Source: Clostridia bacterium
Lineage (GTDB): Bacteria > Bacillota_A > Clostridia > Oscillospirales > Acutalibacteraceae
DNA: 7,096 bases
Assembly (NCBI GenBank): GCA_017445685.1
Contig: JAFSTS010000087.1
Span: 1-7,096, forward strand
Reading direction: 5' to 3'
Positions 1 to 7,096 of the stretch are shown here, piece after piece. A program made the position numbers and the translations under genes. The notes under the pieces are model-generated. The model made no database searches. It was given only the letters and a program-made list of their open reading frames with translations, and was not told the origin of the DNA. Each line of letters opens with the position of its first letter. The first letter of the stretch is position 1.

Positions 1-69
1 CGAAGAGTGCTCGTCAACCGAAGCTTTAAGAGAGGCGGCGTTTGGTGAAAGCCGTTAGTTTTGGTGGCG

Positions 70-78
70 TGTTTGTAG
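70..78 (+). promoter_or_regulatory. Predicted specifier loop, codon GTA (Val) at 75-77
   Basis: The nine bases between the upper helix (63-69) and the lower helix strand CTTC (79-82) form the 3' side of the specifier loop. In well-studied T-boxes such as B. subtilis glyQS, the codon is followed by one base and then the lower helix, which leads into a TGAG kink-turn. The same spacing here puts GTA in the codon position, followed by G78. The T of the TGGT bulge (193-196) would pair with an A discriminator base, as in tRNA-Val, but also as in tRNA-Ile, -Leu and -Phe. The usual GAA before the codon is replaced by TTT, so the reading rests on position rather than on a full motif. Confidence 0.65.
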
Positions 79-188
79 CTTCTGAGCCGGGGAGAAGAAA
101 GCCTTATGGTCAGTAGAACTCCTCCGTGATTGCTGCGTTAATGCATAGGAATTGTTTGATTCCAAGAGTGGCGGATTTTTTCGCAATT

Positions 189-225
189 TGAGTGGTACCG
201 CGGGTAAAGATTTTTGCTCGTCTCA
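189..225 (+). promoter_or_regulatory. T-box antiterminator
   Basis: The canonical antiterminator can be drawn fully. Helix A1 is TGAG (189-192) with CTCA (222-225). The seven-base bulge TGGTACC (193-199) carries the four bases that pair with the tRNA acceptor end. Helix A2 is GCGGG (200-204) with CTCGT (217-221). The 3' strands of both helices are also the 5' strand of the terminator, so the two structures exclude each other. Confidence 0.93.
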
Positions 226-255
226 TTGTTTATCAACATTGGGACGAGTTTTTTT
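217..255 (+). terminator. Regulated intrinsic terminator of the T-box
   Basis: Bases 217-248 fold into a hairpin. Nine pairs, including one G-T wobble, form between CTCGTCTCA (217-225) and TGGGACGAG (240-248). A T-T mismatch and four or more further pairs close a small loop around TATC. Seven T residues follow (249-255). With a charged tRNA this hairpin should form and stop transcription before the first gene. Confidence 0.93.
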
Positions 256-263
256 CGTCCGAG

Positions 264-271
264 AAAGGAAG
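264..271 (+). promoter_or_regulatory. Ribosome binding site that fixes the start of the first gene
   Basis: AAAGGAAG ends seven bases before ATG 279. An in-frame GTG at 192 lies inside the T-box core and upstream of the terminator, so translation cannot sensibly begin there. ATG 279 is the real start. Confidence 0.85.
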
Positions 272-278
272 TTTTTGT

Positions 279-2567
279 ATGCAGCAGATTCCTGAAATCA
301 ATTTTAAAATTCAAGAGATCGCTTCCAGGATCCGTGAGCTTAGAGAAGTGGAAAACCTTACCGTTGAGCAGATGGCTGAAAAGACAGATGTCAGCGTTGA
401 GGAATATATCAGATGTGAAAACGGTGAAGGCGACTTTAACTTTGCATTCATTTACCGTTGCGCGCTTGCGCTTAATGTGAATGTAACGGATATTATTGAA
501 GGTCAGAGTCCAAAGCTTAATTCCTTTACCGTCACAAGAGCTCAGCAGGGCCAGCGTATAAGCGACGCTCACGGCATGACATATTATAACTTGGCTTATG
601 CCTTTAAAAACAGGATAGCCGAGCCGTTGTATGTCGTCAGCAGATTTGATGAAAAAGCTCAAAAAGGCGAGATAGAGCTCACTACTCATGCCGGCCAGGA
701 ATGTGATATTGTTCTTGAGGGTCATCTCACTGTTCAAATCGGACAAAAGCGCGAGACTCTCGGCCCCGGCGACAGCATTTACTTTGACAGTGATACTCCT
801 CACGGAATGATAGCCGCCGACGGAAAGGACTGCATTTTCTATGCGATCGTCCTCAATCCGACAGGTGAGCCGATCCCTGAGCTTTCCCAGTCAAACTCCA
901 TTGTCGAAAATGCAAAGGGAAATGTCGATGTCAAAGACAGAGTTTATAAAAAATATATTGATGTTCAAGAGGATGAAAACGGCACTCCTCTTTCAATAAA
1001 ATTTAAAAACATTGAAAAATTCAATTTCGCATTTGATATAATTGATGAGATTTCAAAGCGAGAGCCGGAGAAGCTTGCAATGCTCCATGTTTCTCTTGAT
1101 AAGACTGAACGACGCATTACTTTTACCGATTTAAGAAAAGCCTCGAATCAGTGCGCGAACTATTTTAAATCACTCGGAATCAAAAAAGGCGACAAGGTAA
1201 TGCTTGTTCTCAAGAGACATTATCAGTTCTGGTTTGCAATTTTGGGTCTTAATAAACTTGGCGCAATTGCAATCCCTGCGACAAATCAGCTTCTTGACCA
1301 CGATTTTGAGTACAGATTCCAAAAAGCAGGCATTACTACGATTATCTGCACTGCGGACGGAGATACTGCTCATCAGGTAGATATCGCCGCTGAAAAATGT
1401 CCTGAGCTTGTAAACAAGATCATTGTAAACGGCGAGAGAGAAGGCTGGCGGAATTTCGACGAGGAATACCAGCTTTACAGCACTCATTTCCGCCGCAGAG
1501 ACGACGCTCCGGGCGGAGACGACTATATGCTGATGTATTTTACATCGGGAACATCGGGTTATCCGAAAATCGCAGCGCATAACTATAAATATCCCCTCGG
1601 ACATTTCCATACTGCAAAATATTGGCATAATGTAAATCCTGACGGACTTCATTTTACGATCTCCGATACAGGCTGGGCAAAGGCAATGTGGGGCAAGCTT
1701 TACGGACAGTGGCTTTGCGAAGGACCTATTTTTGTTTATGATTTTGACAGGTTTGACGCGGCTGATATTTTGCCGATGTTTGCCAAATACAAAATCACGA
1801 CTTTCTGCGCTCCTCCGACAATGCTTCGTATGCTCATTAAGCAGGACATTTCAAAATATGATTTTTCATCGGTTGAACATATGACAACTGCCGGCGAAGC
1901 TCTTAACCCTGAGGTATACCGCCAGTTCGAAAAGGCTACCGGACTTCAGATCGTCGAGGGCTTCGGTCAAAGTGAAAGCACAATGATCATCGGCAACATG
2001 ATAGGCGCTCCTCACAAGATCGGATCTATGGGCAAACCTGCCCCGATATATAATGTAGATATTGTCGATACCGATGGCAACAGCGTTCCTGTCGGTGAAA
2101 CAGGGGAAATCGTCATTGACCTTCGTCAAGGACTTCCGTGCGGTCTTGCAGTCGAATATTATCGTGATCCCGAAAAGACTGCGCAGACATGGAAAGACGG
2201 CTTCTATCATACCGGCGATACTGCATGGCGCGACGAAGACGGCTATTACTGGTATGTCGGCAGAGTAGACGATGTTATCAAATCCTCAGGCTACAGAATC
2301 GGACCGTTTGAAATCGAAAGCGTTATCATGGAGCTGCCGTATGTTCTTGAGTGCGGTGTTTCTGCTGCTCCTGATCCTGTCAGAGGACAGGTTGTCAAGG
2401 CAAGCATTGTTCTCGTAAAAGGCACAGAGCCGACAGAAGAACTTAAAAAAGAAATCCAAAACTATGTCAAAAAGCATACTGCTCCGTATAAATATCCGAG
2501 GATCGTTGTTTTCAGAGACAGTCTGCCAAAGACTGTAAGCGGAAAAATAATGCGTAACGAGCTGTAA
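279..2567 (+). CDS. XRE helix-turn-helix/cupin/medium-chain acyl-CoA synthetase fusion
   Basis: The 762-residue protein has three modules. Residues about 14-75 are an XRE-type helix-turn-helix (LTVEQMAEKTDVSVEEYIRCENG, split here as LTVEQMAEKT and DVSVEEYIRCENG). Residues about 130-195 are a cupin_2 barrel with H137, E141 and H175 as possible metal ligands. The rest, from about 225, is an ANL-superfamily acyl-CoA synthetase. It has the P-loop YFTSGTSGYPK (420-430), a DTGW segment typical of the medium-chain (ACSM/MACS) family, GFGQSE (561-566), YHTGD (643-647), the hinge GRVDD (661-665) and the catalytic lysine in SGK (K756). It should convert a carboxylic acid, ATP and CoA into acyl-CoA, AMP and PPi in the cytosol. 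Context suggests a short branched-chain acid, but the substrate cannot be read from sequence; phenylacetate or other aryl acids are alternatives. The two N-terminal domains may sense a ligand, bind DNA, or both. Confidence 0.92.
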   Translation: MQQIPEINFKIQEIASRIRELREVENLTVEQMAEKTDVSVEEYIRCENGEGDFNFAFIYRCALALNVNVTDIIEGQSPKLNSFTVTRAQQGQRISDAHGMTYYNLAYAFKNRIAEPLYVVSRFDEKAQKGEIELTTHAGQECDIVLEGHLTVQIGQKRETLGPGDSIYFDSDTPHGMIAADGKDCIFYAIVLNPTGEPIPELSQSNSIVENAKGNVDVKDRVYKKYIDVQEDENGTPLSIKFKNIEKFNFAFDIIDEISKREPEKLAMLHVSLDKTERRITFTDLRKASNQCANYFKSLGIKKGDKVMLVLKRHYQFWFAILGLNKLGAIAIPATNQLLDHDFEYRFQKAGITTIICTADGDTAHQVDIAAEKCPELVNKIIVNGEREGWRNFDEEYQLYSTHFRRRDDAPGGDDYMLMYFTSGTSGYPKIAAHNYKYPLGHFHTAKYWHNVNPDGLHFTISDTGWAKAMWGKLYGQWLCEGPIFVYDFDRFDAADILPMFAKYKITTFCAPPTMLRMLIKQDISKYDFSSVEHMTTAGEALNPEVYRQFEKATGLQIVEGFGQSESTMIIGNMIGAPHKIGSMGKPAPIYNVDIVDTDGNSVPVGETGEIVIDLRQGLPCGLAVEYYRDPEKTAQTWKDGFYHTGDTAWRDEDGYYWYVGRVDDVIKSSGYRIGPFEIESVIMELPYVLECGVSAAPDPVRGQVVKASIVLVKGTEPTEELKKEIQNYVKKHTAPYKYPRIVVFRDSLPKTVSGKIMRNEL

Positions 2568-2580
2568 GAGGAGTCTTAAA

Positions 2581-3243
2581 ATGCAATACAAAAGAATAAC
2601 TCTTCTTTGCGGTCACTACGGAAGCGGCAAGACAAATATCGCTTTGAACATGGCTTTTGATTTGAAAAATCAAAAAGACAATGTAGCTATCGCCGATCTT
2701 GATATTGTCAATCCGTATTTCAGAACAAAAGACAGCGCTGACGAGCTGAAGGAAAAAGGCATACGGCTGATCGTTTCCGAGTTTGCAAATTCTAATGTCG
2801 ATATTCCTGCTCTGCCTCAGGATATGTACGCGATAACGGACGATAAAAATTTAAATACAGTAATTGATGTCGGCGGAGACGACAGGGGAGTGCTTGCTCT
2901 CGGAAGACTGAGCGACAAAATCATTGAAGAAAATAATTACAATATGTTTCTTGTTGTCAACTGCTACAGACCGCTGACAAGAAATGCGGACGAAACAATT
3001 GAAGTTCTTCGTGAAATGGAAATGTCGTGCAAGATTCGTTTTACCGGCATTGTAAACAATTCCAATTTAGGCGTTTTAACTACGCCGGAGGATGTTTTGA
3101 AATCGGTCGGATATGCTCAGGAAGTGTCTGAAAAAACTTCCCTTCCAGTAGTTGCAACGACAGTAGACGAAAATATATATTCATCCCTGACTGGAAAAAT
3201 AGATGATCTTTTCCCTCTCAGGCTTCAAAAGAAAATAATATAA
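2581..3243 (+). CDS. Small P-loop ATPase, MinD/CobQ-like, function unknown
   Basis: The 220-residue protein begins with a Walker A motif, GHYGSGKT (11-18). It then has DLDIVNPYFR (39-48), with an acidic pair at the place of the A' motif of SIMIBI ATPases, and DVGGDDRG (96-103) in the Walker B position. The first lysine of the deviant Walker A of true ParA/MinD proteins (KGGxGK) is missing. It is therefore a relative rather than a partition protein. There is no signal peptide or membrane segment. AGGAG (2569-2573) sits seven bases before the ATG, only 13 bases after the synthetase stop, so it belongs to the operon. A link to maturation or control of the iron-sulphur oxidoreductase next door is possible but is inference from position only. 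Confidence 0.82.
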   Translation: MQYKRITLLCGHYGSGKTNIALNMAFDLKNQKDNVAIADLDIVNPYFRTKDSADELKEKGIRLIVSEFANSNVDIPALPQDMYAITDDKNLNTVIDVGGDDRGVLALGRLSDKIIEENNYNMFLVVNCYRPLTRNADETIEVLREMEMSCKIRFTGIVNNSNLGVLTTPEDVLKSVGYAQEVSEKTSLPVVATTVDENIYSSLTGKIDDLFPLRLQKKII

Positions 3244-3256
3244 AGGAGATATCGGT

Positions 3257-3463
3257 ATGGCAAAGTTAACTTTCAAAACCGACAACTGCAAAGGCTGCGG
3301 ACTATGTGTGGATGTATGTCCAAAACAGGTTCTTGCTCTTGCAGAAGACAAAATCAACAAAAAGGGACATCATCCCGTTACCGCCGTCAATCCTGAGGCG
3401 TGTATAGGATGCGCGTTCTGCGCGACAATGTGTCCGGACTGCATAATCAAGGTTGAAAGGTGA
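3257..3463 (+). CDS. korD: 2-oxoacid:ferredoxin oxidoreductase delta subunit, 2x[4Fe-4S] ferredoxin
   Basis: This 68-residue protein has two classical 4Fe-4S ligand sets: C11-x2-C14-x2-C17-x3-C21-P and C49-x2-C52-x2-C55-x3-C59-P. It would pass electrons between the TPP-dependent catalytic core and free ferredoxin. A ninth cysteine (C62) follows the second cluster motif. AAGGAG (3243-3248) overlaps the stop of the ATPase gene and lies eight bases before the ATG. The alpha-subunit gene follows at once. The order delta, alpha, beta, gamma is common in four-subunit KOR/VOR enzymes. The kor symbol marks the subunit type and does not claim 2-oxoglutarate as substrate. Confidence 0.9.
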   Translation: MAKLTFKTDNCKGCGLCVDVCPKQVLALAEDKINKKGHHPVTAVNPEACIGCAFCATMCPDCIIKVER

Positions 3464-3464
3464 G
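3458..3464 (+). promoter_or_regulatory. Ribosome binding site that selects the alpha-subunit start
   Basis: AGGTGAG lies at the end of the delta gene and spans its stop codon. It ends eight bases before ATG 3473. A GTG three codons upstream, at 3464, overlaps this site and would have no usable binding site of its own, so ATG 3473 is preferred. Confidence 0.7.
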
Positions 3465-3472
3465 TGAAGAAT

Positions 3473-4543
3473 ATGTCAGATAAGGTATTGATGAAGGGCA
3501 ACGAGGCAATCGCCGAAGCTGCCATTATTGCCGGATGTCGTCATTATTTCGGCTATCCCATTACTCCGCAGACTGAGATCGCTGCATATATGGCAAAGAA
3601 AATGCCTAAGATCGGCGGATGTTTCCTCCAGGCTGAAAGCGAGATCGCAGCTATCAATATGGTATACGGCGTATCTTCAACAGGAAAGAGGGTAATGACC
3701 TCCTCTTCAAGCCCCGGAATTTCTCTTAAAGGTGAGGGACTTTCTTACCTTGCAGGCTCGGATCTTCCTGCTCTTGTTGTCAATGTGCAGCGCGGCGGCC
3801 CCGGACTTGGCGGTATTCAGCCCAGTCAGTCGGACTATTTCCAGTCTACAAGAGGCGGCGGACACGGCGACTACAGAATGATAGTTCTTGCGCCTGCATC
3901 AGTTCAGGAAATGGCTGAGCTTACCATCAAAGGCTTTGAGCTTGCAGATGAATACAGAATGACAGCTATGATCCTTGCCGACGGTACAATGGGTCAGATG
4001 ATGGAGCCGGTTGAGCTTGATCTTGAAGTTAAACCCATGCCCGAAAAACCTTGGACAACTACCGGCACAAAGATGCAGAGAGAACACAATATCGTAAATT
4101 CTCTTTCTCTTGTTCCCGAAGAGCTTGAACAGCTCAATATCGAAAGATATGAAAGATATAAGGTTATTGAAGAAAAAGAAACGAGATACGAAGAATACAT
4201 GGTCGATGATGCAGATATTTGCATCGTAGCATTCGGTATTGCCGCAAGAGTTTCCAAAAATGCTGTCAACGAAGCAAGAAAAATGGGAATCAAAGCCGGT
4301 ATGATTAGACCTGTCACACTCTGGCCTTTCCCGAAAGCGCCGTTTGAAAAAGCGGCTGAGCATGTTTCAAGATTCATCAGCGTCGAGCTTTCGATGGGAC
4401 AGATGATTGAAGATGTTAAGCTTGCAACCGGATGTAAAGTTCCCGTAGAGCTTTGCAACCGTGTCGGCGGAATGATCCCTTCGCCTGAACAGGTTCTTGA
4501 AGCAATCGTTAAAGCAAGCAAAGAAATCGGAGGTGCAAAATAA
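3473..4543 (+). CDS. vorB: 2-oxoacid:ferredoxin oxidoreductase alpha subunit, VorB type
   Basis: This 356-residue protein matches the alpha subunit of four-subunit 2-oxoacid:ferredoxin oxidoreductases in length and motifs. The start MSDKVLMKGNEAIAEAAI leads into GYPITPQTE (27-35), the pyrimidine-domain signature. GGPGLGG (108-114) and a glycine-rich stretch near SQSDYFQSTRGGG follow. The second half is a transketolase-C-like domain. With the beta subunit it forms the active site that interconverts a 2-oxoacid plus CoA with acyl-CoA, CO2 and reduced ferredoxin. Proteins of this form in clostridia are usually named ketoisovalerate (3-methyl-2-oxobutanoate) oxidoreductase VorB, although KorA of 2-oxoglutarate oxidoreductase is close. 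The neighbouring branched-chain aminotransferase and the likely Val T-box favour branched 2-oxoacids. It ends in TAATG, sharing one base with the beta gene. Confidence 0.9.
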   Translation: MSDKVLMKGNEAIAEAAIIAGCRHYFGYPITPQTEIAAYMAKKMPKIGGCFLQAESEIAAINMVYGVSSTGKRVMTSSSSPGISLKGEGLSYLAGSDLPALVVNVQRGGPGLGGIQPSQSDYFQSTRGGGHGDYRMIVLAPASVQEMAELTIKGFELADEYRMTAMILADGTMGQMMEPVELDLEVKPMPEKPWTTTGTKMQREHNIVNSLSLVPEELEQLNIERYERYKVIEEKETRYEEYMVDDADICIVAFGIAARVSKNAVNEARKMGIKAGMIRPVTLWPFPKAPFEKAAEHVSRFISVELSMGQMIEDVKLATGCKVPVELCNRVGGMIPSPEQVLEAIVKASKEIGGAK

Positions 4544-5301
4544 TGGTTGTATTTGATAAACCCCATGCGCTTACAGATGTGCCTATGCACTATTGCCCCG
4601 GCTGTACGCACGGTATAGTTCACCGTCTTGTTGCCGAAGCAATTGACGAGCTTGGTATCGAGGGCAAAACGATAGGTATTGCACCTGTCGGCTGTTCCGT
4701 AATGGCATATAATTATTTTAACTGCGACATGATCGAAGCTGCTCACGGCAGAGCTCCTGCCGTTGCCACAGGCGTAAAAAGAGCGGATCCTGATAATCAT
4801 ATCGTCTTCACATATCAGGGTGACGGCGACCTTGCCTCGATCGGCATGGCTGAAACAGTTCATTCTGCCGCAAGAAACGAAAATATCACTGTTATTTTCA
4901 TCAACAACGCAATTTACGGAATGACAGGCGGACAGATGGCTCCGACTTCGCTTCCCGGACAGGTGACTCAGACTTCACCTTACGGCAGAGATGTAAATCA
5001 CTGCGGTTATCCGATCAGAGTTTGCGAAATGCTTTCTGAGCTTGAAGGTCCTGAATATCTCGAAAGAGTAACGGTAAACAATGTTAAGAATATTAAAAAT
5101 GCCAAGAAGGCTATAAAAAAAGCTTTCCAGAATCAGATAGATAAAAAAGGCTTTTCGCTTGTTGAAGTCGTATCTTCTTGCCCGACAAACTGGGGAATGA
5201 CTCCGCAGCAGGCTCTTAAATGGATCGACGACAATATGCTTCCGTACTATCCTCTTGGAGTTTATAAGGACAGATCAGCACAAAAGGAGGAAGCAAAATG
5301 A
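4543..5301 (+). CDS. korB: 2-oxoacid:ferredoxin oxidoreductase beta subunit, TPP-binding
   Basis: The 252-residue protein carries the thiamine pyrophosphate-binding half of the enzyme. It has HYCPGC (16-21), whose cysteines often help bind a [4Fe-4S] cluster in this family, then APVGCSVMAYNYF. The TPP/Mg motif runs from GDGD (93-96) to the Asn pair at 121-122, followed by AIYGMTGGQMAPTS. GGAGGTG (4529-4535) lies seven bases before the ATG. The start shares one base with the alpha stop and the end overlaps the gamma gene by four bases (ATGA), so translation of the three core subunits is probably coupled. Four-subunit KOR and VOR enzymes cannot be told apart on this subunit alone. Confidence 0.92.
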   Translation: MVVFDKPHALTDVPMHYCPGCTHGIVHRLVAEAIDELGIEGKTIGIAPVGCSVMAYNYFNCDMIEAAHGRAPAVATGVKRADPDNHIVFTYQGDGDLASIGMAETVHSAARNENITVIFINNAIYGMTGGQMAPTSLPGQVTQTSPYGRDVNHCGYPIRVCEMLSELEGPEYLERVTVNNVKNIKNAKKAIKKAFQNQIDKKGFSLVEVVSSCPTNWGMTPQQALKWIDDNMLPYYPLGVYKDRSAQKEEAK

Positions 5302-5831
5302 GCACAGTAAACTATTTGTTTTCAGGTTTCGGCGGACAGGGTATTCTTTTTGCCGGTAAATTTATTGCATATAAAGGTCTTATCGAAGACAAGCAGGTCA
5401 GCTGGCTCCCGTCTTACGGCCCTGAAATGAGAGGCGGCACAGCAAGCTGCAGCGTTATCGTAAGCGATGAAAATGTCGGCTCTCCAATTGTTTCAAACCC
5501 CGATATTCTTGTTGCGATGAATCTTCCGTCACTTGACAGATATGAAAAGAGCGTAAAACCCGGCGGCAAGATTTTCCTTGATTCGTCACTTATTGAAAGA
5601 AAAGTTGAGCGCGACGATGTTGAAGTTTATTATATTCCAGCAACTCAGATGGCGTCGGATAATAAGACTCCGACTCTTGCTAATATGATAATCGTCGGCA
5701 AAATCCTTTCCGTCCTCGGCGAATGTGATGACGAAGGACTTAAGAAAGCGCTTGGAAAGGTTATTTCCGCAAAACACGCCGATATGCTTGATGTCAACCT
5801 AAAGACGATCAAACTCGGCGCAGAAATATAA
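5298..5831 (+). CDS. korC: 2-oxoacid:ferredoxin oxidoreductase gamma subunit
   Basis: The 177-residue protein is of normal length for the gamma subunit (POR family, catalytic domain III). It has FSGFGGQGILFAGK near the N-terminus and SYGPEMRGGTASC (39-51), both hallmarks of the family. In known structures this domain contacts the CoA substrate and closes the complex. AAAGGAGG (5283-5290) lies inside the end of the beta gene and the start overlaps its stop as ATGA. The next gene starts 12 bases after the TAA. Nothing is truncated, so all four subunits of the enzyme are present and intact. Confidence 0.92.
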   Translation: MSTVNYLFSGFGGQGILFAGKFIAYKGLIEDKQVSWLPSYGPEMRGGTASCSVIVSDENVGSPIVSNPDILVAMNLPSLDRYEKSVKPGGKIFLDSSLIERKVERDDVEVYYIPATQMASDNKTPTLANMIIVGKILSVLGECDDEGLKKALGKVISAKHADMLDVNLKTIKLGAEI

Positions 5832-5843
5832 GGAGAGATATTT

Positions 5844-6905
5844 ATGCAGATCAAGATCACTAAAACTTCCACACCAAAGGAAAAACCCTTTGGAAAAGAG
5901 CTTGGCTTCGGCAAAATATTTACCGACCATATGTTCCATATGAAATACAGCAGAGAAAAAGGCTGGTACGATGCGGAGATCATTCCGTTTGGTTACCTTT
6001 CTATTCATCCTGCTTCAACAGTGCTGCATTACGGCTCTGAGATTTTCGAAGGACTTAAAGCGTATCGCACAAAGAGCGGCGATGTTCAGCTTTTCAGACC
6101 TATTGAAAACATTAGAAGAATGAACAATTCCGCCGATAGACTTTGCCTTCCTCAGATTCCGGAAGAAGATGCGCTTGAGATATATAAGACGTTTGTTGCT
6201 TTCGAAAAAGACTGGACTCCTTATGATGAAGGAACATCCCTTTATCTTCGTCCTTTCATGTTCGGAAACGATGAATCTCTTGGCGTTCATGCCGTACACA
6301 ATGCTGACTTTTACATCATCGCTTCTCCCGTAGGCAGCTACTATAAAGAGGGTATCAACCCTGTTAAAATCATGATTGAAGACGAAGATGTAAGAGCAGT
6401 CAGAGGCGGCACGGGCTATGCAAAATGCGGCGGAAACTACGCAGCGTCAAACAGAGCAGGCGAGAGAGCCGAGCAGAAGGGATATTCCCAGGTTCTTTGG
6501 CTTGACGGTGTAGAGAGAAAGTACATTGAAGAAGTCGGCGCAATGAATGTTATGTTCAAAATTAACGGAGAGATCGTAACACCTGCGCTCACAGGTTCGA
6601 TCCTTCCCGGCATTACGAGAAAATCCTGCCTTGAGCTTCTGAAAAACGAAGGCTATAAAGTCAGCGAAAGACTTCTCAGCGTTGAAGAGCTTACAAACGC
6701 TATGAAAGAGGGAACACTTGAAGAAGCATGGGGATGCGGAACTGCCGCAGTTGTTTCTCCGATCGGCGAGCTTTGCTATAAAGACATGAAGTATACTGTC
6801 AACGGCGGTAAAATCGGCGAAGTTACACAGAAACTCTACGATACTCTTACAGGTATTCAGTGGGGAAAAATCGAAGATAAATACGGCTGGACAGTAAAAC
6901 TTTAA
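5844..6905 (+). CDS. ilvE: Branched-chain amino acid aminotransferase
   Basis: The 353-residue protein is a fold-type IV PLP aminotransferase of the longer BCAT form found in many Firmicutes and in eukaryotes. Visible family motifs are LHYGSEIFEGLKAYR (61-75), the PLP Schiff-base lysine K194 in GYAKCGGNYAASNRA, EVGAMN (230-235), and GTAAVVSPIG (299-308) near the phosphate-binding end. It moves the amino group between glutamate and 2-oxoisovalerate, 2-oxoisocaproate or 3-methyl-2-oxovalerate, giving Val, Leu or Ile. Ribosome binding site AAGGAGA (5830-5836) overlaps the gamma stop and is seven bases before the ATG. As the last gene of the operon it completes an acid to acyl-CoA to 2-oxoacid to amino acid route, and it could also run in the catabolic direction. 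Confidence 0.95.
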   Translation: MQIKITKTSTPKEKPFGKELGFGKIFTDHMFHMKYSREKGWYDAEIIPFGYLSIHPASTVLHYGSEIFEGLKAYRTKSGDVQLFRPIENIRRMNNSADRLCLPQIPEEDALEIYKTFVAFEKDWTPYDEGTSLYLRPFMFGNDESLGVHAVHNADFYIIASPVGSYYKEGINPVKIMIEDEDVRAVRGGTGYAKCGGNYAASNRAGERAEQKGYSQVLWLDGVERKYIEEVGAMNVMFKINGEIVTPALTGSILPGITRKSCLELLKNEGYKVSERLLSVEELTNAMKEGTLEEAWGCGTAAVVSPIGELCYKDMKYTVNGGKIGEVTQKLYDTLTGIQWGKIEDKYGWTVKL

Positions 6906-6914
6906 TTTAAACGG

Positions 6915-6955
6915 GCAGAGAGTGTTGACTGAATATTCTCTGCTTGTTTGTTTTT
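6915..6955 (+). terminator. Intrinsic terminator at the operon end
   Basis: GCAGAGAGTGTT (6915-6926) pairs with AATATTCTCTGC (6932-6943), giving 12 pairs with two G-T wobbles around the loop GACTG. A T-rich tail, TTGTTTGTTTTT, follows (6944-6955). It begins ten bases after the ilvE stop and closes the transcript that starts at the T-box. Confidence 0.9.
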
Positions 6956-7096
6956 CGTCAATTCCCAAAGTAAATTCCACAGTAGGACGAGGGGCGGAAA
7001 ACAGTGTGGGAAAAGCGGAAATTAGACCGGGAAACGGGTGAAAAGGCAAATAAAAATGGGAAAACAGAGGTTCAAAACGAAAAGAAAGCAAAGGGA
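6956..7096. other. Purine-rich intergenic sequence, no gene seen
   Basis: The 141 bases after the terminator are strongly purine-rich on the + strand and repeat short GGGAAA-like words (near 7008, 7029 and 7058). I see no start with a ribosome binding site and no convincing hairpin. It may be spacer leading to the next gene outside the window. Confidence 0.5.

Follow-up and report, generated by a model that had tools for sequence, protein, structure and literature searches.

What would show, from a genome alone, that a ferredoxin-dependent 2-oxoacid oxidoreductase works in the direction of amino acid synthesis, and for which amino acid? The question is raised by a stretch of 7,096 nucleotides from a Clostridia bacterium of the Acutalibacteraceae (GenBank assembly GCA_017445685.1, contig JAFSTS010000087.1, positions 1 to 7,096; the whole stretch is referred to here as the window), in which a T-box leader is followed by genes for an AMP-forming acyl-CoA ligase, a four-subunit oxidoreductase and a branched-chain amino acid aminotransferase (BCAT). 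A first-pass annotation, made by reading the sequence, had described this succession, and matches to RF00230 and to Pfam and NCBIfam models bear it out, although its gene list passed over a P-loop ATPase gene at 2581-3243 and the helix-turn-helix (HTH) and cupin domains fused to the ligase, and it left the specifier codon unread. The window is a single transcription unit of seven genes, all on the + strand, with intergenic gaps of 13 nt or less and two overlapping gene pairs, and the genes for activation, carboxylation and amination thus share one operon and one common leader. We regard it as highly probable that this is an operon, apparently of a gut or rumen bacterium, for valine synthesis by reductive carboxylation.

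The scheme that we propose runs as follows. Uncharged tRNA-Val would pair with a GUA specifier in the leader, hold the antiterminator and prevent transcription from stopping at 216-255 when valyl-tRNA is short. Isobutyrate released by other microbes would be converted with ATP and CoA to isobutyryl-CoA by the AMP-forming ligase, the oxidoreductase would carboxylate isobutyryl-CoA with CO2 and two reduced ferredoxins to 2-oxoisovalerate, and the aminotransferase would turn this into valine. For isoleucine and leucine, activation of the corresponding acids would fall to other ligases, under isoleucine and leucine T-boxes of their own; since one VorB protein passes its cut-off per relative genome tested, the oxidoreductase probably also serves these two amino acids. 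The first-pass annotation had named valine, leucine or isoleucine as products, of which valine stands for the switch in the window, whereas isoleucine and leucine have their own ligases behind their own T-boxes in relatives.

The leader and its valine specifier

The leader was sought with RF00230 by E-value. Its match of 77.4 bits, which is truncated at the 5' end, lies below the Rfam gathering score of 93 bits, so that a search at the gathering threshold lists no T-box here; full-length leaders of both ligase types in relatives also fall below 93 bits (66.6 to 92.8 bits, n=6). The hallmarks of a T-box are present, namely the bulge UGGU at 193-196 within GUGGUACCGCG at 192-202, a specifier loop in Stem I and a competing terminator, this last being a 34 nt hairpin (216-249) that overlaps the 3' arm, is followed by a U run and has a folding energy (-18.2 kcal/mol, z -8.1) equalled by none of 200 shuffled sequences. 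Folding of positions 1-92 places a loop at 73-78 (UUGUAG) on top of a helix formed by 2-5 and 79-82. The frame that TBDB ranks first in a specifier loop, nucleotides 2-4 counted from the loop's end (in passages of PMC7778990), reads GUA here, a valine codon and the same one that the RF00230 columns give, and the T-box of the window is predicted to respond to valine tRNA.

How far such columns can be trusted was gauged in the genomes that carry related loci (the carriers): for ten T-boxes whose next gene is named by NCBIfam, the RF00230 specifier columns were correct in all ten (valS GUC, ileS AUC, tyrS UAC, pheS UUC in three cases, asnS AAC, thrS ACC in two and cysE UGC). Decoding in bulk used a pattern rule (codon, one base, five bases, GAG) that left several candidate codons per leader, with the choice made by eye, and was repeated on subsets with the Rfam alignment. 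The two procedures agreed on all ten controls and on seven of seven leaders of ligase or LeuA-like genes, comprising one valine and one isoleucine leader each from G034, G017 and G011 and one leucine leader from G017.

Relatives of the operon were gathered by a scan for the ligase with one genome per species, which gave at least 80 loci, nearly all in metagenome-assembled genomes (MAGs) and many from rumen or hindgut. A T-box motif stands 5' of the ligase in 73 of 80. Upstream of the window-type ligase (ACS2) there is frequently a paralog, ACS1 (59-67% identical where at least 500 residues align), found in 48 of the 69 loci that leave 2.7 kb for it and, where these also have the alpha subunit in reach (42 loci), in 41; it is preceded by its own T-box in 43 loci. 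The window, whose first base already falls within the second leader, does not extend far enough to show one. In locus L024 a sigma-70-like promoter lies, as judged by eye, between ACS1 and the second leader, which would allow each unit to be transcribed by itself.

The two kinds of leader differ in their codons. AUC (Ile) is the specifier in each of the 43 ACS1 leaders, and 69 of the 73 window-type leaders read GUA, GUC or GUG; one (L080) reads AUC and the pattern rule gave no codon for three (L047, L048 and L060), so that 69 of 70 decoded leaders specify valine. Since third-base changes within the valine group are synonymous, the GUN frame is supported. A cysteine reading (UGU, one base 5' of GUA) was rejected on account of these A, C and G changes, and also because the Rfam columns give GUN and TBDB lists a use of 0.00 for UGU (PMC7778990). 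By eye, Stem I differs in the leaders of L047 (an Erysipelotrichaceae MAG) and L060 (a Solobacterium MAG), where its loop reads GAA-GUC-G, and their specifiers are probably valine. Elsewhere, at L089 (contig C43 of G013), a GUC T-box was seen by eye before a helicase-like protein, with a valS-like gene (partial matches to the ileS model) about 2.8 kb further on.

The upstream ligases of L032 and L054 (cut by the contig start) and fragments with fewer than 500 aligned residues were excluded before specifiers were counted. A tree of the ligases (129 rows) parts 70 valine ligases, the window's among them, from 44 isoleucine ligases by one branch with support of 100. The ligase of L080, the sole isoleucine exception among the window-type leaders, is counted with the 44 and falls in the ACS1 clade. 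The plain reading would be a single duplication after which each copy kept its specifier, and not 114 independent events.

Features of the window
Feature	Position	Strand	Basis
T-box leader	1..228	+	RF00230 77.4 bits, E 2.3e-17; Stem I cut by contig/window start, Stem III, antiterminator; leader conserved in relatives
Specifier GUA (valine)	75..77	+	RF00230 specifier columns; unpaired loop in fold
Intrinsic leader terminator and U run	216..255	+	-18.2 kcal/mol, z -8.13
AMP-forming acyl-CoA ligase (ACS2) with N-terminal HTH and cupin, 762 aa; putative isobutyryl-CoA synthetase	279..2567	+	Pfam HTH_19/HTH_3, Cupin_2, AMP-binding, AMP-binding_C
P-loop ATPase, CobQ/MinD/ParA type	2581..3243	+	PF01656 28.1 bits, cut-off 25.4
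Oxidoreductase delta subunit (ferredoxin), two 4Fe-4S motifs	3257..3463	+	Fer4 families
Oxidoreductase alpha subunit, VorB subfamily	3464..4543	+	NF005507 540.2 bits, cut-off 399
Oxidoreductase beta subunit, thiamine pyrophosphate-binding	4543..5301	+	PF02775 80.7 bits
Oxidoreductase gamma subunit	5298..5831	+	PF01558 126.8 bits
BCAT (ilvE)	5844..6905	+	NF009897 479.7 bits (cut-off 307), TIGR01123 393.8 bits (cut-off 250)
Terminator-like hairpin with T run, 3' of ilvE, operon end	6908..6950	+	19-pair stem, longest of 9 terminator-like sites

Reading of the sequence suggests that the true start of the alpha subunit is possibly the ATG at 3473. Terminator-like sites number nine in the window against 6.5 expected, and the hairpin at 6908-6950 is weak evidence of an operon end when taken alone. 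Among the 45 relative loci with at least 7 kb behind the ligase, all four oxidoreductase subunits are present in 29, with ilvE too in 26 of those 29, and in some loci ilvE lies between the ligase and the ATPase. In 25 of these 29 a P-loop ATPase gene of MinD/ParA type is retained between ligase and oxidoreductase, a short way after the ligase.

Absence of the acetolactate route from most relatives tested

The first-pass annotation had proposed a genome search for ilvBN, ilvC and ilvD. Applied to 40 carrier genomes drawn from the 80 loci, against curated cut-offs, such a search found ilvC in two and ilvD in two (G017 and G035 in both cases), leaving 38 with neither gene, and ilvB in one (G017), with a 213-bit fragment in G035. 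The reference gene ileS passed its cut-off in 37 of the 40, and VorB in 38 with partial matches in the other two. For the leucine route, leuB passed in two genomes (G017 and G038), in both of which it is adjoined by leuC-like proteins of 420 and 440 aa, leuC passed in none of 40, and G040 has a leuB-like protein of 245 bits. The leuB and leuC models match all of 14 control genomes but pass their cut-offs in nine only, and because these cut-offs miss five of the 14 we say no more than that the leucine route may have been lost.

A second sample consisted of 295 genomes from the GTDB family of G003, five of them shared with the 40, in which ilvC passed its cut-off in 130 and matched at E <1e-20 in 135. 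With ligase copies counted at E up to 1e-150 and ilvC at E <1e-20, ilvC occurs in 13 of 115 genomes with at least two ligase matches against 122 of 180 others (Fisher p 5e-23, uncorrected for kinship). It is present in 19 of 23 genomes with one distant ligase copy, in 84 of 118 with none and in 19 of 39 with one close copy, this last group being mixed, so that it is the ligase pair, and not one ligase, that marks the loss of ilvC.

Substrate, direction and rival readings

The alpha subunit passes the VorB cut-off and falls short of both the 2-oxoglutarate synthase alpha model (NF007206, 234.4 bits against 579) and the indolepyruvate model (73 against 651). Genes for the alpha, beta, gamma and delta subunits are all present and adjacent at 3257-5831, the aminotransferase exceeds two BCAT cut-offs, and we infer that the oxidoreductase would act on the pair 2-oxoisovalerate and isobutyryl-CoA.

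The ligase aligns over residues 241-761 with PDB entry 3ETC at 624 bits, the next PDB relative scoring 348 bits. This entry is MacsMa of Methanosarcina acetivorans, which prefers 2-methylbutyrate (according to passages of PMC10455477); the two share the ligase region, whereas the HTH-cupin head of about 240 residues, which lies outside the match, belongs to the window's ligase only. The HTH and cupin at 279-1000 resemble a transcription regulator fused to the ligase, and among the matches listed (precomputed Pfam) the cupin occurs in all of 120 ligase rows, the window included, and the HTH in 116. We propose that this ligase is an isobutyryl-CoA synthetase. The earlier contention that the T-box marks the oxidoreductase as a synthase is supported by the valine specifier, by the absence of ilvBCD from most carriers and by the kinship of the ligase with MacsMa, and the leader suggests valine as the product of the operon, for it is then most easily understood. 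The genes, the leader and its specifier are seen in the sequence; flux direction and substrates are predicted from them.

The obvious alternative is that the operon degrades valine, with aminotransferase and oxidoreductase running oxidatively to branched fatty acids and reduced ferredoxin. The enzyme is best known as a catabolic one, its reactions are reversible, and the NCBIfam family is even named 3-methyl-2-oxobutanoate dehydrogenase. A valine T-box, however, induces when valyl-tRNA is short, the opposite of what catabolism needs, and uptake would be the sole source of valine in most of the carriers tested, which do not have ilvBCD. The ligase, moreover, is AMP-forming; such an enzyme spends ATP, which suits activation of an acid rather than its energy-yielding release. 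Taken together these points make valine breakdown very unlikely. Salvage for lipids, in which the ligase would supply branched acyl-CoA to prime the synthesis of branched-chain fatty acids for the membrane, with aminotransferase and oxidoreductase feeding the same pool, draws on MbcS of Staphylococcus aureus, an AMP-forming ligase like that of the window which activates isobutyrate and 2-methylbutyrate for lipid synthesis (in passages of PMC10026030) and which is the best NCBIfam match of the window's ligase, albeit below its cut-off. Control by tRNA charging, one amino acid for each ligase, and co-transcription with ilvE point instead to amino acid supply, most carriers tested have few other routes left in the absence of ilvBCD, and we judge salvage quite improbable as the purpose of the operon, although the acyl-CoA may be used for both lipid and amino acid. 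A third reading makes the oxidoreductase a synthase of 2-oxoglutarate or of an aryl pyruvate, with the aminotransferase using its product, and finds some encouragement in the delta and beta subunits, whose best matches are 2-oxoglutarate models, below cut-off. The scores of the alpha subunit speak against it, as do the valine T-box and the BCAT in the same operon, and at least two relatives have a separate IorAB beside arylacetate ligases with tyrosine or phenylalanine T-boxes; it is very unlikely, and the least probable of these alternatives.

Several observations weigh against valine synthesis by reductive carboxylation, or against how generally it holds. The ligase scores 428.6 bits against the MbcS model (NF047394), far under its cut-off of 850, and in the NCBIfam search the beta, gamma and delta subunits passed no equivalog cut-off. 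The carriers are MAGs for which no completeness is stated, and that the genome of the window would be without ilvBCD is an inference from relatives, most of which were shown to lack these genes. G017 and G035 carry the operon together with ilvC and ilvD, so that a genome need not have lost the old route to have the operon. Dehydratases below the ilvD cut-off (495-514 bits) occur in G007, G026 and G027, members of the acetolactate synthase family (119-330 bits) in G032, G036 and G037, and the 19 of 39 genomes with one close ligase copy and ilvC belong here too. No oxidoreductase follows the ligase in 16 of the 45 loci with 7 kb of room; of G036-G040, which are of this kind, four have VorB over cut-off elsewhere in the genome and G039 has a partial match. 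A T-box motif is missing before the ligase in seven of 80 loci, of which L052 has only about 180 bases upstream, and L031 and L039 have the motif before the upstream paralog only. In the other four (L011, L033, L053 and L067) ACS1 and ACS2 lie back to back with no motif before either and a third, distant ligase about 4 kb upstream, and these may be under another control. The tree and the co-occurrence counts, finally, are not made up of independent events.

Leucine and aromatic arms, and wider significance

In 13 of 80 loci the operon is followed by a third T-box, which other genomes have at a different place. At L024 (16900-21825) it heads genes for a LeuA-like protein (HMGL and LeuA_dimer domains), for a protein of 841 aa in which a TIM barrel resembling xylose isomerase is fused to an AMP-forming ligase, and for an Amidohydro_2 protein. 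Of the 40 carriers, 38 have the LeuA-like gene. Among 30 loci of this arm (L125-L154), a T-box motif is in reach in 26, and the 25 that were decoded all specify leucine (24 CUC and one CUG); the front part of the ligase fusion comes next in all 30, weakly in L154, and at least 25 of the 40 carriers have a leucine T-box at the head of this third ligase operon. The three arms, taken together, correspond to the rumen's three branched acids.

Aromatic counterparts occur as well. In L163 (contig C41 of G013) a tyrosine (UAC) T-box heads a ligase, IorA, IorB and a PaaK-like ligase, and in L164 (contig C2 of G021) a phenylalanine (UUC) T-box has ligase-IorA-IorB on one side and a PaaK-like ligase on the other. 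IorA is over its cut-off in both genomes, and the PaaK models score 521 and 548 bits, below the cut-off of 646. Both leaders have one base more between specifier and GAG than the pattern rule expects, and the codons were taken from the Rfam columns. The two loci appear to be arylacetate versions of the same scheme.

The chemistry itself has long been known, for some sixty years, from the rumen, while the gene set and its control have hitherto been vague. Branched-chain amino acid synthesis by reductive carboxylation in rumen bacteria was reportedly worked out by Allison, Robinson and co-workers between 1962 and 1971. Isobutyrate yields valine, 2-methylbutyrate isoleucine and isovalerate leucine by this route (passages of PMC7356843), the same reactions that we propose here; what differs from the rumen work is the gene set, a tRNA switch for each amino acid and an absence of ilvBCD, in relatives, that is tied to the route. 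The leader architecture and the position of the specifier are those of known T-box amino acid operons, in which valine specifiers prefer a 3' A or C, isoleucine AUC and leucine CUC (from parts of Wels, 2008, PMC2494555, and of TBDB, PMC7778990). The main text of the former does not contain 'ferredoxin', 'acyl-CoA', 'aminotransferase' or 'oxidoreductase', nor that of the latter 'oxidoreductase', tables and supplements of both lying outside the search. Among the matches listed for the open-licence literature, no paper joins a T-box to the reductive-carboxylation route, although an unremarked entry in a TBDB table is likely, and none pairs a T-box with ketoisovalerate ferredoxin oxidoreductase or with isovalerate and valine; passages of PMC11304471 offer nothing on this route beyond succinate carboxylation.

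A broader proposal, to which we give neither more nor less than even weight, is that these gut Clostridia have exchanged the acetolactate pathway for a tRNA-sensing carboxylation regulon with a T-box and an acid-activating ligase of its own for each branched-chain amino acid: ACS1 for isoleucine; ACS2 with the shared oxidoreductase and aminotransferase for valine; and the LeuA-like protein, the TIM-barrel/ligase fusion and the amidohydrolase for leucine, with tyrosine and phenylalanine versions built on IorAB and PaaK-like ligases in at least two genomes. If it is true, T-box specifiers would reveal the substrates of ligases that could not otherwise be assigned, the ligases would bear DNA-binding heads of their own, and the leucine arm would hold enzymes for which the known route has no step. 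More immediately, an amino-acid-specific T-box before each ligase offers a way to find, from sequence, organisms that possibly depend on this route, and the specifiers could both assign ligase substrates and help to test the direction of an oxidoreductase that is usually annotated as catabolic, matters of relevance to the feeding of branched acids to ruminants and to cross-feeding in the gut.

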